From positions 1 through 34,579 of the forward strand of contig DATLZA010000148.1 in assembly GCA_035574235.1 (NCBI GenBank): a stretch of DNA of 34,579 nucleotides, read 5' to 3'. Positions 6,367 through 20,665 of this stretch are shown in pieces (position 1 is the stretch's first letter; every line of letters starts with the position of its first letter). Source of the stretch: Planctomycetota bacterium (GTDB lineage: Bacteria; Planctomycetota; MHYJ01; JACPRB01). Under the pieces are notes generated by a model. The model was not told where the DNA came from, made no database searches, and saw only the letters and a program-made list of their open reading frames with translations. The position numbers were made by a program, and so were the translations under genes.

Positions 6367-6372
6367 TATAAT
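6367..6372 (+). promoter_or_regulatory. -10 box TATAAT of the M16-glgP operon, leaderless
   Basis: A perfect TATAAT lies 9 bases before the TTG at 6382. The only alternative upstream start, a TTG at 6364, lies inside the promoter itself and would not be transcribed from it. No clear -35 is present and there is no Shine-Dalgarno site, so a leaderless mRNA starting at the TTG is inferred. Confidence 0.55.
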
Positions 6373-11917: not shown

Positions 11918-11923
11918 TATAAT
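11918..11923 (+). promoter_or_regulatory. -10 box TATAAT before an unknown gene, leaderless
   Basis: GGCGGATATAAT ends 7 bases before the ATG at 11931, putting the transcription start at the A of the start codon. TTCCCG at 11895-11900 with a 17-base spacer is a weak -35 candidate. No Shine-Dalgarno site is present. The same 12-base string with the same 7-base spacing precedes the kinase gene at 15278. Confidence 0.6.
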
Positions 11924-13392: not shown

Positions 13393-15213
13393 TCAGGGTC
13401 CAACGAGGCGCACGGCGCCCGGGCGACCCACGAGCGTATACGTCTTCCCGTGCGCCGCGCCCTTGACGGCCACCGTCTCGCGGCCCGAGGCGTGCGCGAG
13501 GTCCACCTCGTAGTCGTCCACCTCGAGTTCGACGACGTAGGGCGCTTCGGGATCGCCGGGGAAGGAGACGGGTTTCCCGCCCCGCCGCAGTTCCTCGACG
13601 CGCGCCCCGCGGACGTACACGCGCAGGAGGAACGTGCCGCGGTACGACGCCATCGCCGCCGCCCGCGCGCCGAGCGCCTCCGCTTCCGAAGCCACCCCGG
13701 CGAGCTCGGGCACCTCCCGGACGGCGCCGCGGACCGCTTCGCACCACCGCGCGGCCCGGGCCGCTTCTTCCCGCCGATCGGGCCATTCCGAGCGGGGTCG
13801 GGCGGCCCAGCGATCCACGTCGCGCCGGACGTCTTCGATCTGGCCTCGGAACCAGTCCTTGACTTCCTCCGTTTCGACCGCGGGCAGGTCCCTGAGGCCG
13901 CGCAGCCGCGCGGCGGCGCGGGAGGCCGCCTCGGCGTCCTCCGGACGGAACGCGGTGTAGACCAGGGCGCGGCGGTCTTCCAGCCATCCCTTGCGCCAGC
14001 GCGTCACGGCCGCCAGGGGGTCCTCGCGCGGAGCGGAGGACGTCGCGGCCACGGCGGGCCTCCCCGCCTCCCGGATCCGCGGGCGCGCCGCGAGGCGCCA
14101 GACCATCGCCGCCGCGCCCAGAAGGACCGCCGTTCCCGCCAGCAGGATTCCCAGGCGCACGCCGCGAGGGGGCGGCGCGGGGGCCTCGACCGGTCGGCTG
14201 TCCAGGAACCGCTGGAGGTCCTCCGCCAAGGCGCCGGCCGAGGGGTAGCGGTCTTCCTTCTTCGGGGCCATGGCCTTCCGAAGGATCGCCTCCAGGGTCT
14301 CCGGAAGGTCGGGCCGCACGGAGCGGGGGGGCGGGGGCGACTCGGTCGAGACCTTCATGAGAACTTCCATCACGCTGCGCCCCTCGAAGGGAGGCTTGCG
14401 GCAAAGCACCGCGTAGAGCGTGGCGCCGAGGGAGTACACGTCGCTGCGCGCGTCGATCTCCTCGAGATGTCCCTGGGCCTGTTCGGGGGCCATGAACGCC
14501 GGGGTGCCCATGATGGCCCCGGACACGGAAAGCGAACTTTCCATCTCCAGCGCCTTGGCCAGACCGAAATCCATGACGTACGGCCAGCCGTCGGCGTTGA
14601 GCATGATGTTCTGCGGCTTGAGGTCCCGGTGGACGACGCCGGCGCGGTGAGCGGCATCGACGCCGCGGGCCACCTTCACGAAAATCTCCACCGTCTCGCG
14701 GATCGGAAGCGGCGGAGCGGCGGCCAGGGTCTGCCCGTCGATGTATTCCATGGCCAGGTAAGGACGCGGCGCCTGGCCGGGAGCGGTGGGCGGGGCTTCG
14801 CCGACCTCGTAGATGGGGGCGATGTTCGGATGGCGCAGCCGGGCGGCGAGCTTCGCTTCCCGCTGGAAGCGCGCCACGTCCTCCTCATCGGTGGCGGTGA
14901 GAAACTTGATGGCGACCCAGCGGGTCAGCTTCAGGTCCCACGCCTTCCAGACGGTGCCCATGCCGCCCTTGCCGATCTGGCGGACGAGAATGTACTGGTG
15001 GAGGCGCCGCGAAGGGTCCTGGGCATGGGCCGCGGCTTCCTCGGGAATTTCGTCCAGACGCGAGCGGGAGGAGGCCGGCCGCGTGGGCCCCGCGGCGCAC
15101 CCCGAATGTCCTTCCCCCGCATAGCGTTCGCCGCAGGAGGGACAGCGCCGGGTGGTGGCGTCCAGACCCAGGGGGTCGCCGCTCTCCGACGACGCGGACG
15201 GGAAGTCAGGCAT
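13393..15213 (-). CDS. Membrane Ser/Thr protein kinase with N-terminal Cys motif
   Basis: A 606-residue Hanks-type kinase. Residues 24-39 hold a CPSCGERYAGEGHSGC cluster that could be half of a zinc ribbon. The kinase domain spans about 74-340: glycine loop GKGGMGTVWKA (81-91), ATP-binding Lys103 in VAIKF, HRDLKPQN (195-202) with catalytic Asp197, DFG (215-217), APEQ (242-245) and SDVYSLGATLYAVL, so it should be active. One membrane helix follows a proline linker (about 353-372). The 230-residue outer part is helical, then ends in a beta-rich stretch (RGTFLLRVYVRG onward) resembling PEGA-type domains, which are thought to sense or bind envelope components. The gene is divergent from another kinase; the two starts are 64 bases apart. 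A TATAAT lies 11 bases before the ATG. Confidence 0.93.
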   Translation of the reverse strand: MPDFPSASSESGDPLGLDATTRRCPSCGERYAGEGHSGCAAGPTRPASSRSRLDEIPEEAAAHAQDPSRRLHQYILVRQIGKGGMGTVWKAWDLKLTRWVAIKFLTATDEEDVARFQREAKLAARLRHPNIAPIYEVGEAPPTAPGQAPRPYLAMEYIDGQTLAAAPPLPIRETVEIFVKVARGVDAAHRAGVVHRDLKPQNIMLNADGWPYVMDFGLAKALEMESSLSVSGAIMGTPAFMAPEQAQGHLEEIDARSDVYSLGATLYAVLCRKPPFEGRSVMEVLMKVSTESPPPPRSVRPDLPETLEAILRKAMAPKKEDRYPSAGALAEDLQRFLDSRPVEAPAPPPRGVRLGILLAGTAVLLGAAAMVWRLAARPRIREAGRPAVAATSSAPREDPLAAVTRWRKGWLEDRRALVYTAFRPEDAEAASRAAARLRGLRDLPAVETEEVKDWFRGQIEDVRRDVDRWAARPRSEWPDRREEAARAARWCEAVRGAVREVPELAGVASEAEALGARAAAMASYRGTFLLRVYVRGARVEELRRGGKPVSFPGDPEAPYVVELEVDDYEVDLAHASGRETVAVKGAAHGKTYTLVGRPGAVRLVGP

Positions 15214-15224
15214 AAACCTGATTC

Positions 15225-15230
15225 ATTATA
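15225..15230 (-). promoter_or_regulatory. -10 box TATAAT of the membrane kinase gene
   Basis: On the minus strand TATAAT at 15230-15225 is 11 bases before the ATG at 15213, leaving a leader of at most about 4-5 bases. There is no Shine-Dalgarno sequence. No good -35 is seen. It lies back to back with the promoter of the divergent kinase. Confidence 0.55.
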
Positions 15231-15264: not shown

Positions 15265-15270
15265 TATAAT
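15265..15270 (+). promoter_or_regulatory. -10 box TATAAT of the soluble kinase-FHA operon
   Basis: GGCGGATATAAT ends 7 bases before the ATG at 15278. An in-frame GTG/ATG start further upstream (15152) would lie before this box and inside the divergent kinase gene, so 15278 is preferred. A run of six G before the ATG is too close to act as a normal ribosome site. Confidence 0.6.
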
Positions 15271-15277
15271 GGGGGGC

Positions 15278-16099
15278 ATGGAAGCGCTGGGGGGATGCCG
15301 CATCCTGGGCGAGCTGGGCCGCGGCGCGATGGGAACGGTCTACAAGGCCGAGCGGGGCGGCACGATTGTGGCGCTCAAGGTGCTGGCCGATCGGTGGGCC
15401 GGGGATCCCGCATTTGCCGACCGGTTCGTGCACGAAGGGCTCATCATGGCGCGGCTGTCGCATCCCGCGATCGTGCGGGTGCTCGACGTCGGACGCGACC
15501 TCGGAAAGTTTTACCTGGTCCTGGAGTACGTGGAGGGGCCTCCGTTCGCGCGCGCCATCCGCCGCCGGGCGTTCACGCCCCGCCAGAGCGCGCGGATCGT
15601 GGCGGCGGTCGCGCGGGGGCTGGACCACGCGCACGCCCACGGAATCGTGCACGGCGACGTGACGCCCTCGAACATCCTGCTCAAAGGGGACGGCTCGCCG
15701 AAGCTGACGGACTTCGGAATGGCGCGGCGGCCGGGGGGACCGTCCGGCGAGGCGGGCCGGACGGCCGGGACGCCCGTCTACATGAGCCCGGAACAGGCCG
15801 CGGGACTTCATGACGTGATCGACGCCCGCACGGACGTCTATTCCTTAGGGGCGGTGCTGTACGAGGCCGTCACGGGCCGGGCCCCGTTCGCCGGCCGGTC
15901 CACGATCGAGATCCTCGAGAAAGTGCTGCGGGAGGCTCCGCCGCGGCCCTCGGAGGCGGAGCCGGAGCTCGAGGCGATCGTCCTGAAGGCGATGGAGAAA
16001 GACCCGGCGCGCCGCTGGGCCTCGGCGAAGGAGCTGGCCGAGGCGCTGGAGGGCTGGGCGCGGCGGGCGTCGGACTGCTTTTCGATGCTTTCGCCATGA
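15278..16099 (+). CDS. Soluble Ser/Thr protein kinase with HGD catalytic loop
   Basis: A 273-residue protein that is nothing but a kinase domain, with no membrane helix or extra module. The glycine loop GELGRGAMGTVYKA is at 11-24 and the ATP-binding lysine is Lys34 in VALKV. The catalytic loop reads VHGDVTPSNIL: Asp127 and the metal-binding Asn132 are kept, but the usual HRD arginine is glycine (126) and the DLKP lysine is threonine (129). DFG is at 145-147, then TPVYMSPEQAAG and TDVYSLGAVLYEAVTG. Kinases with HGD loops need not be controlled by activation-loop phosphorylation, so it may be constitutively active. The next gene overlaps by ATGA and encodes an FHA-domain protein, the natural reader of its phosphothreonines. 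Confidence 0.92.
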   Translation: MEALGGCRILGELGRGAMGTVYKAERGGTIVALKVLADRWAGDPAFADRFVHEGLIMARLSHPAIVRVLDVGRDLGKFYLVLEYVEGPPFARAIRRRAFTPRQSARIVAAVARGLDHAHAHGIVHGDVTPSNILLKGDGSPKLTDFGMARRPGGPSGEAGRTAGTPVYMSPEQAAGLHDVIDARTDVYSLGAVLYEAVTGRAPFAGRSTIEILEKVLREAPPRPSEAEPELEAIVLKAMEKDPARRWASAKELAEALEGWARRASDCFSMLSP

Positions 16100-17127
16100 G
16101 CCGATTCGTCGCCGTGGAGGGCCCCCTGCGGGGCAAGTCGTTCGAGGTGACGGAGCTCGCCTCCATCGGACGGGGCGAGGCGTGCGCCGTGCGGCTGGAG
16201 GGCAGGCACGTCTCCCGGATCCACGCGCGCCTGGAGCGGCGCGGGGACTCCATGGTGATCCGGGACAACGACAGCCGGAACGGAATCTACGTGAACGGGC
16301 GGGCGGTGCAGGAGGCGACCCTGGCGCCGGGGGACGAGGTCGAGATCGGCGAGCACGTGCTCGTTTTCGATCCCCCGGGGGAGCCGCCGGCGGAGCCCAC
16401 GCGGGGAGCCCGGGTTCTGGCGACGTGTACGGATCCGTTCGCGCCGCTCGGGGAGCCCGATCCGCGCCTGGAGCCCCTGCTCCGGCAGGCGGCGGCGATC
16501 GTCGCGGCGGACGCGGAGCGGGACGTGGCCAAACGGCTCCTGGAAGCGTGCCTGGCGACGCTTCCGGCGGAGCGCGGATTCGTGATGCTCCAGGAGGCGT
16601 CGGGGGCGCTGCGGCCGATGGCGCGGAAGGCGCCGGCGGGGGAGGAGTTTTTCCTCTCGAGCGTCCTTCAGGCGCGGCTGGAGCGGGAGCGGGCGGCGAT
16701 CCTGGCGCGGGACATCCTGCGCCGCCCTCCGCGGGCGGGTCAGGCGGTGGGGATTCTGGCGGCGCCGCTGGCGACCCCCGGAAGGTTCCACGGCCTTCTC
16801 TATCTGGATGCAGCCTTGGCCGCGCCGGAGGAACATCCGCGGTTCACGCGGGCGGATCTTCGCTTCGCCGCGGCGCTCTCGTCCTTTGCGGCGATGCGGG
16901 TGGCTCAGCTCGGGCGCCCGAATCCGCTGGACGGGCTCGGTGAAAAGCCGCTCCCGGACCTCCGCGCCGCCTTCGAAAAGGAGTGCGCCGTGGAGGCGCT
17001 CCGGCGCCACGGCGGGAATCTCGACGCGGCGGCGAAGTTCCTGGGACTCACGCGGGCGACTTTGGACGAAAAGCTCAAGGTTCTGGGGCTTCTGGAAGCG
17101 CCGTCCTCCCCTCCGCCGGCCCGGTGA
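16096..17127 (+). CDS. FHA-GAF-Fis type HTH regulator without AAA+ domain
   Basis: A 343-residue protein with three recognisable parts. Residues 1-93 form an FHA domain with SIGRG (23-27), SRIHA (40-44) and SRNGIYVNG (60-68), the phosphothreonine-binding loops. Residues about 120-272 match a GAF-like sensor (AKRLLEACLATLPAERGFVML, then GRFHGLLYLD and LRFAAALSSFAAMRVAQL). Residues 292-332 are a Fis-type helix-turn-helix (EKECAVEALRRHGGNLDAAA, then KFLGLTRATLDEKLKVLGL), as found at the end of sigma-54 activators. The central AAA+ ATPase that normally sits between GAF and HTH is absent. It probably binds DNA and senses both phosphorylation and a small ligand; the targets are unknown. It is translationally coupled to the kinase gene upstream (ATGA overlap). 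Confidence 0.85.
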   Translation: MSRFVAVEGPLRGKSFEVTELASIGRGEACAVRLEGRHVSRIHARLERRGDSMVIRDNDSRNGIYVNGRAVQEATLAPGDEVEIGEHVLVFDPPGEPPAEPTRGARVLATCTDPFAPLGEPDPRLEPLLRQAAAIVAADAERDVAKRLLEACLATLPAERGFVMLQEASGALRPMARKAPAGEEFFLSSVLQARLERERAAILARDILRRPPRAGQAVGILAAPLATPGRFHGLLYLDAALAAPEEHPRFTRADLRFAAALSSFAAMRVAQLGRPNPLDGLGEKPLPDLRAAFEKECAVEALRRHGGNLDAAAKFLGLTRATLDEKLKVLGLLEAPSSPPPAR

Positions 17128-17147: not shown

Positions 17148-17186
17148 AAAAAAAAGAAGGCCGAATCGGGGGAAGTGATTCGGCCT
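17148..17186 (-). terminator. Intrinsic terminator of the TPR gene
   Basis: A perfect 10-bp stem, AGGCCGAATC (17158-17167) with GATTCGGCCT (17177-17186), has a 9-base loop. On the minus strand it is followed by a run of eight T (plus-strand A at 17148-17155) after a short TTC gap. This serves the minus-strand gene ending at 17268, giving a 3' tail of about 110 bases, and shields it from the convergent FHA gene. Confidence 0.85.
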
Positions 17187-20598: not shown

Positions 20599-20604
20599 AT
20601 TATA
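20599..20604 (-). promoter_or_regulatory. -10 box TATAAT of the MshEN-like gene, leaderless
   Basis: On the minus strand TATAAT (20604-20599) is followed by 8 bases and then the ATG at 20590. Transcription should begin at or next to the start codon. No -35 is recognisable. Confidence 0.55.
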
Positions 20605-20656: not shown

Positions 20657-20665
20657 TGCTATAAT
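20657..20665 (+). promoter_or_regulatory. Extended -10 promoter of the tRNA gene
   Basis: TGCTATAAT is a perfect extended -10 (TGnTATAAT) about 20 bases before the tRNA 5' end. The expected transcription start near 20672 leaves a leader of about 14 bases for RNase P. No good -35 is present, as is usual with extended -10 elements. Confidence 0.65.

Follow-up and report, generated by a model that had tools for sequence, protein, structure and literature searches.

We propose, with roughly an even chance of being right, that two overlapping genes of a Planctomycetota bacterium encode a kinase-coupled phosphothreonine reader derived from a retired sigma-54 activator, resembling the EmbR/PknH system and carrying a helix-turn-helix (HTH) that most likely still binds DNA. 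The window, meaning the whole 34,579-nucleotide stretch that was analysed, is contig C148 of a 4.06-Mb genome in 203 contigs (G000). At the level of sequence and predicted structure, comparison with related genomes demonstrates descent from sigma-54 activators, decay and deletion of the AAA+ domain, coupling to a kinase, an intact FHA pocket and a predicted HTH fold. Control of DNA by the window protein is plausible, as a role that is not conserved across the family.

The family, f1, comprises the window genome and four family-mates (G001–G004). A scan of named genomes with two conserved FHA patterns, which can miss members, returned full-length relatives in these four family-mates only, which match the Planctomycetota metagenome assemblies JAHFOZ01, JACPRB01, JACQVR01 and JACPRC01, three of the four labelled as groundwater.

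The kinase gene and its FHA-GAF-HTH partner

The sequence-only reading described a kinase gene overlapping a gene for an FHA-GAF-Fis HTH protein that lacks AAA+, and both frames were found as described, in agreement with Pfam. They lie on the same strand (Table 1) and overlap by 4 bp (ATGA at 16096–16099). ATG 15278, taken as the start of the kinase, matches the start of the G001 ortholog (MEALGGC and MEFLGGC), and an in-frame ATG at 15269 provides an alternative. The likely −10 element that precedes this start is placed identically in G001, and no −35 match was found for it. Short, chance-sized repeats were all that emerged when a conserved promoter palindrome was considered as an autoregulatory site, and this candidate was rejected. 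The hairpin that follows the second gene has a fold z-score of −1.87 and was not scored as a T-tailed terminator; it is a possible end of the two-gene unit.

The hexamer TATAAT occurs six times in the window, which has a G+C content of 70%, against 0.28 copies expected. Four copies lie 7–11 bases 5′ of an ATG with no clear Shine–Dalgarno sequence, an arrangement that suggests leaderless messages. Another observation is that one copy may precede a candidate tRNA-like sequence, and the 65-bp intergenic region between the kinase pair and a divergent second kinase gene holds one TATAAT for each.

Table 1. Features of the gene pair and its surroundings, in window positions
Feature	Position	Strand	Basis
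Soluble Hanks-type Ser/Thr kinase, no membrane or sensor domain	15278..16099	+	Pkinase 1.9e-48 (Pfam); five-member ortholog clade
Atypical catalytic loop HGDVTPSN, with changes at the HRD Arg and the loop Lys	15650..15673	+	comparison of kinase loops
Thr165 (numbered from ATG 15269), activation loop; candidate phosphothreonine for FHA	15761..15763	+	kinase alignment
TATAAT 7 bases ahead of ATG 15278, likely −10 element for the pair	15265..15270	+	same placement in G001
FHA-GAF-Fis-HTH protein, 343 residues, AAA+ lost	16096..17127	+	Pfam, model, orthologs
FHA domain, residues 1–93, phosphothreonine-pocket residues kept	16096..16374	+	FHA 8.6e-17 (Pfam, residues 23–85); GarA fold match
GAF domain, residues 125–272	16468..16911	+	GAF 2.3e-5 (Pfam, residues 143–268); AlphaFold2 model
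Linker at AAA+ deletion junction, residues 273–285	16912..16950	+	low pLDDT at 276–284
Fis-type HTH, residues 286–332, recognition helix diverged	16951..17091	+	HTH_8 6.2e-11 (Pfam, residues 291–328), 42.3 bits against a cut-off of 22; predicted helices
Hairpin GGCCGAATC/GATTCGGCC after the FHA-GAF-HTH stop codon, between convergent genes	17159..17185	+	sequence
Other TATAAT copies	6367–6372	+	
	11918–11923	+	
	15225–15230	−	
	20599–20604	−	
	20660–20665	+	

The FHA residues that form the phosphothreonine site (R26, S40, R41, H43, N62, G63 and N67) are invariant in all five orthologs. Foldseek identifies GarA/OdhI as the nearest solved FHA domains, with the PknB:GarA complex (6i2p) as the top fold match, and the match to GarA extends over about 91 residues at 1.0–1.2 Å. 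The window protein thus has both the fold and the pocket Arg, Ser and Asn of a phosphothreonine reader, the role that had been assigned to this domain. No Thr in the FHA–GAF linker is conserved in all five orthologs, and an intramolecular phosphothreonine site there was rejected.

An AlphaFold2 model of the protein, computed from an 18-row alignment of the window and locus proteins (mean pLDDT 83.5), contains an FHA sandwich, a GAF domain, a low-confidence linker (residues 276–284) and a three-helix C-terminal unit (residues 286–329). The helices span residues 286–304, 309–315 and 320–329 with pLDDT values of about 85–92. The sequence-only reading was to be abandoned if structure prediction gave no HTH at residues 292–332; because three C-terminal helices are predicted with confidence, that outcome did not arise.

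Descent from sigma-54 activators and loss of the AAA+ domain

A profile of the FHA-GAF region finds one ortholog in each of the five f1 genomes at an E value of about 1e-130, the next best match in these genomes being about 1e-31. No further family member is present among 392 genomes of the phylum at E ≤ 1e-36, where the other matches are AAA+ activators or proteins with different C-terminal parts. The nearest relatives, which occur in other families of the same class (G007–G020) and in four further genomes of the phylum, are complete FHA-GAF-AAA+-HTH activators that carry GAFTGA (GAFTDA in one) and the recognition segment SRPTLDKK.

The f1 orthologs differ from one another in the state of the AAA+ domain. 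The G002 protein (612 residues) keeps the FHA-GAF-AAA+-HTH order, with an AAA+ domain from which the GAFTGA loop and loop 2 are missing and in which Walker B reads YLAEVG (Asp to Ala). The G003 protein (525 residues) consists of FHA, GAF and AAA+ with neither an HTH nor GAFTGA, and its AAA+ domain is more damaged than that of G002, with Walker A as GEPGAGR (Lys to Arg) and Walker B as IENL (DE to EN). The orthologs in G001 (384 residues) and G004 (362 residues) are, like the window protein, FHA-GAF-HTH proteins, and none of these three gives a Pfam match to AAA+ or Sigma54_activat or has the Walker A and Walker B motifs of a sigma-54 activator. The GAFTGA loop that contacts sigma-54 is absent from all five orthologs and present in the class-level relatives examined. 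At the site of the window linker (residues 273–285), an AAA+ domain is found in G002, G003 and the class-level relatives.

A frameshift or assembly artefact was rejected as an explanation for the shortened protein, because the same AAA-less frame is found in three different assemblies, no AAA+ remnant is present, and the hairpin and a convergent gene follow the window gene. Nor is the arrangement of the locus due to chance, since orthologs occur in five genomes and the AAA-less architecture with its upstream kinase recurs in G001 and G004; the full arrangement is thus found in three of the five genomes and has a single shared origin.

In a tree of FHA-GAF sequences, all five proteins of f1 group together in a single clade (98/89), nested within a 97/92 clade that includes intact FHA-GAF-AAA+-HTH proteins. 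Other FHA-GAF proteins fall outside the 97/92 clade, including the f1 paralogs with intact AAA+ (for example, on G000:C184), and the idea that one of these paralogs is the true ortholog of the AAA+ clade was rejected on this basis. Together with the degenerate AAA+ domains of G002 and G003, the tree demonstrates common descent with sigma-54 activators, an origin that had previously been proposed from the FHA-GAF-HTH order. The split between G000, G001 and G004 on one side and G002 and G003 on the other has a bootstrap value of 100 in RpoN and concatenated trees, and is weak when FHA-GAF or kinase sequences are used alone. The bootstrap value of 100 implies that one final AAA+ deletion explains the three AAA-less proteins, and these sequence relationships support a single decaying lineage in which AAA+ was deleted once, in the ancestor of G000, G001 and G004.

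RpoN is kept in all five f1 genomes, and the window genome has 22 Sigma54_activat matches and about 20 AAA+ activators. Sigma-54 and its activators therefore persist, so that one activator was uncoupled rather than the whole system, and an organism-wide loss of sigma-54 was rejected as the cause.

The pattern of conservation also differs between the two kinds of protein. Between f1 members, identity is 60–75% in the FHA domain versus 39–50% in the HTH, which makes FHA the most conserved f1 domain, whereas in the AAA+ relatives the HTH is conserved as well as FHA or better (G007 and G016: FHA 77%, HTH 95%; G007 and G014: FHA 46%, HTH 76%). The f1 recognition helices (TRATLDEK, DKAAFDAK, PPPQFEAK and TQTALAQK) diverge from the SRPTLDKK of the AAA+ relatives, and the net charge of the HTH falls from +6 to +8 in those relatives to +2 in G000, +1 in G001, 0 in G004 and +4 in G002; for seven intact activators from f1 genomes, this charge lies between +3 and +9. 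HTH_8 scores are 42.3 bits for the window protein, as high as for intact activators, 30.4 for G004 and 16.7, below the cut-off, for G001. Although few sequences are available, it appears that selection now acts less on DNA recognition and more on phosphothreonine recognition, with lineages differing in the extent of this change.

The paired kinase and its linkage

In a tree of 45 kinase domains, the window kinase and its best match in each family-mate form a five-member clade (SH-aLRT 99). In three genomes the orthologous kinase gene is the immediate upstream neighbour of the FHA gene, overlapping it by 4 bp in G000 and in G001 and separated from it by 10 bp in G004, as expected if the pairing anticipated from the window alone is conserved. 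In G002 the two genes share a contig and are about 3 kb apart, and in G003 they are on separate contigs. The flanks of the window and G001 loci are partly shared, with a cyclase-FHA gene inserted and a TPR gene located elsewhere, and the G004 flanks differ. Because the pair was kept while its flanks changed among these three genomes, its linkage outlasts its surroundings. None of seven flanks read from class-level AAA+ relatives contains an adjacent kinase gene, the nearest being about 4 kb away, in G020.

The window kinase retains its glycine loop, VAxK Lys, catalytic Asp, loop Asn, DFG and an APE equivalent; of the Hanks-type motifs (VAxK, HRDxKxxN, DFG and APE), only the HRD Arg, now Gly, and the loop Lys, now Thr, are changed. 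The corresponding loops are HSDIVPGN in G001, HADITPGN in G004, HRDITPGN in G003 and HRDIKPGN in G002. At 30 kinase loci, the window genome shows 28 distinct loops; 27 of these are HRDxK, the one departure being that of the window kinase. Its substitutions suggest that the paired kinase may be weak or inactive. The HGDxT loop is used by active atypical kinases such as Bud32, and this likeness argues that the window kinase is atypical rather than clearly dead; Bud32 models match it weakly. The activation-loop position of Thr165 is Thr in the kinases of G000, G001, G004 and G002, and Ala in the unlinked kinase of G003.

Several other features were noted at or near these loci. The divergent second kinase of the window (13393–15213, minus strand) has a zinc-ribbon-like N-terminus (CPSCGERY) and a typical HRDLKPQN loop, and a similar, PknB-like kinase lies near the pair in G001; the window copy could phosphorylate the pair. 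Between the pair and the PknB-like kinase of G001 is a gene (L038:11340–12263, plus strand) encoding a nucleotide-cyclase domain followed by FHA, a second FHA output at the same locus that has no counterpart at that place in the window. G002 has a tandem pair of kinase genes (L040:4927–7106) at a distance of about 3 kb from its gene for the degenerate activator; the second of them is orthologous to the window kinase and has a normal HRDIK loop. The FHA proteins of G001 and G004 (L009:1363–2514 and L010:1492–2577) end in ATWNSVQT and ADWKSVEV, and the paired kinases end in EDWNSMLPS, PDWFSIIPSS and, in the window, SDCFSMLSP. This similar short W-x-S tail could be a docking peptide or a product of chance.

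A proposed phosphothreonine reader and its alternatives

The model that we favour starts from what the comparison shows: the protein descends from a Planctomycetota FHA-GAF-AAA+-Fis sigma-54 activator whose AAA+ domain first lost the sigma-54-contacting loop and later, in the common ancestor of G000, G001 and G004, was removed entirely by deletion; in these three genomes the gene is coupled to a dedicated soluble kinase. The kinase may produce a phosphothreonine, on itself or on its partner, or may itself carry one, with Thr165 as the best candidate. The FHA domain would bind this kinase-linked phosphothreonine, docking the partners in a manner like that of EmbR on PknH, while the GAF domain might serve as a second input (small-molecule or conformational) and as a dimer interface. 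The HTH of the window protein is predicted still to fold and most likely binds DNA with altered specificity, in which case it would act at sigma-70-type promoters through binding or roadblock rather than through ATP-driven opening of sigma-54 promoters.

The sequence-only reading had portrayed the locus as a phospho-signalling to DNA switch. Its sigma-54-activator origin, its conserved kinase pairing and its invariant FHA pocket have been borne out, whereas its kinase proves not to be ordinary, lacking the HRD Arg and the catalytic-loop Lys, and its DNA-switch role is plausible with partial support. The main rival, a tenable though somewhat unlikely one, is that the protein is a kinase adaptor with marginal or no DNA binding, a GarA-like partner that senses phosphothreonine and a ligand and whose HTH is mainly a dimerisation unit in the course of being lost. 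Such an adaptor would accord with the loss of SRPTLDKK, the lowered charge, the sub-threshold HTH of G001, the absence of an HTH from G003 and the fact that FHA, not the HTH, is the best conserved domain. However, the window HTH scores as high as those of intact activators and its three helices are confidently predicted, and the HTH-less G003 is also the genome with the unlinked kinase. Sequence-specific DNA binding by the predicted window HTH is plausible, although its recognition helix has diverged and its charge is lowered. We regard as rather doubtful a related scheme of stepwise conversion to a kinase partner that does not regulate DNA, in which the motor was silenced and then deleted, DNA recognition was relaxed, FHA was tightened and a kinase with a Bud32-like loop co-evolved.

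The altered loop also bears on a different arrangement, in which a weak or dead kinase is phosphorylated by another kinase, such as the divergent one, and the FHA protein of this scaffold pair reads the mark. That each of the three paired kinases has other residues in place of the HRD Arg and the loop Lys fits this idea, as does the presence of about 50 kinases in the window genome, one of them divergently transcribed beside the pair; nevertheless, the remaining catalytic motifs are intact and HGDxT occurs in active kinases of the Bud32 type, and we consider a scaffold pair unlikely. Least probable, and by a wide measure improbable, is ordinary decay, whereby a redundant sigma-54 activator erodes with no new function beside an incidental kinase neighbour. 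The disappearance of AAA+, the missing HTH of G003 and the divergent HTH of G001 do resemble erosion, but frames remain open in five diverged genomes, the FHA domain is strongly conserved and the pair stays linked in three genomes with differing flanks.

Several known systems share parts of this design. The Planctomycetota FHA-GAF-AAA+-HTH activators (for example, in G007, G008, G014, G020 and G062) have the same FHA-GAF order, Fis-type HTH and descent, and differ from the window protein in their intact Walker A, Walker B and GAFTGA, their SRPTLDKK and their lack of an adjacent kinase. RegA/PrrA/ActR proteins join a sensor domain to a short Fis-type HTH with no AAA+, as the window protein does, but they use a receiver domain and a His-Asp phosphorelay in place of FHA and a Ser/Thr kinase. 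GarA and OdhI, an FHA domain with a short tail, act on metabolic enzymes and have neither the GAF nor the HTH of the window protein. EmbR is composed of an OmpR-type winged helix, BTAD and FHA, and PknH, a membrane kinase, has an extracellular sensor. As with EmbR/PknH, the window places an FHA protein (DNA-binding in EmbR) and a Ser/Thr kinase in one predicted operon, judged from the ATGA overlap and the pair kept in G001 and G004. Pfam and the model give FHA-GAF-Fis HTH instead of winged helix, BTAD and C-terminal FHA, and EmbR has no GAF or sigma-54 ancestry; the window kinase, unlike PknH, is soluble. In Mycobacterium tuberculosis, EmbR and PknH are encoded in one operon and EmbR needs its FHA domain for phosphorylation by PknH (PMC9239209, PMC4601284), although EmbR phosphorylation was undetected in vivo under normal growth (PMC9239209).

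Loss of sigma-54 coupling also has precedents. Among the activator relatives that lost GAFTGA (NtrC of Caulobacter and R. capsulatus, TyrR, DhaR, HupR and VpsR), action at sigma-70 promoters has been shown or proposed for several (PMC10274813, PMC3162934): NtrC of Caulobacter and R. capsulatus does so (PMC10274813), and the GAFTGA-defective homologs TyrR, DhaR and HupR are linked to such promoters (PMC3162934). Their coupling to sigma-54 is lost as in the window protein, but the two NtrC proteins keep AAA+ with a loop deletion, and TyrR, DhaR, HupR and VpsR are described as GAFTGA-defective homologs, whereas three of the f1 genomes lack the entire domain through deletion. The FHA and kinase input of the window protein sets it apart from all of these. 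A search of the literature for FHA-GAF regulators with kinases in Planctomycetes found nothing specific.

Kinase-linked FHA regulators and uncoupled sigma-54 activators are thus already known kinds, here combined and accompanied by unusually clear evolutionary intermediates. The sigma-54-contacting loop is known to have been lost in a handful of activators, but intermediates on the way from a full AAA+ activator to an AAA-less regulator are seldom seen. The five f1 genomes display a silenced motor, a ruined motor with no HTH and complete deletion, with intact relatives in the same class, and the catalytic loop of the coupled kinase is changed in the same three genomes as the AAA+ deletion. The system allows tests of how control by sigma-54 gives way to phosphothreonine signalling, and of whether the HTH has been kept for DNA or for another role.
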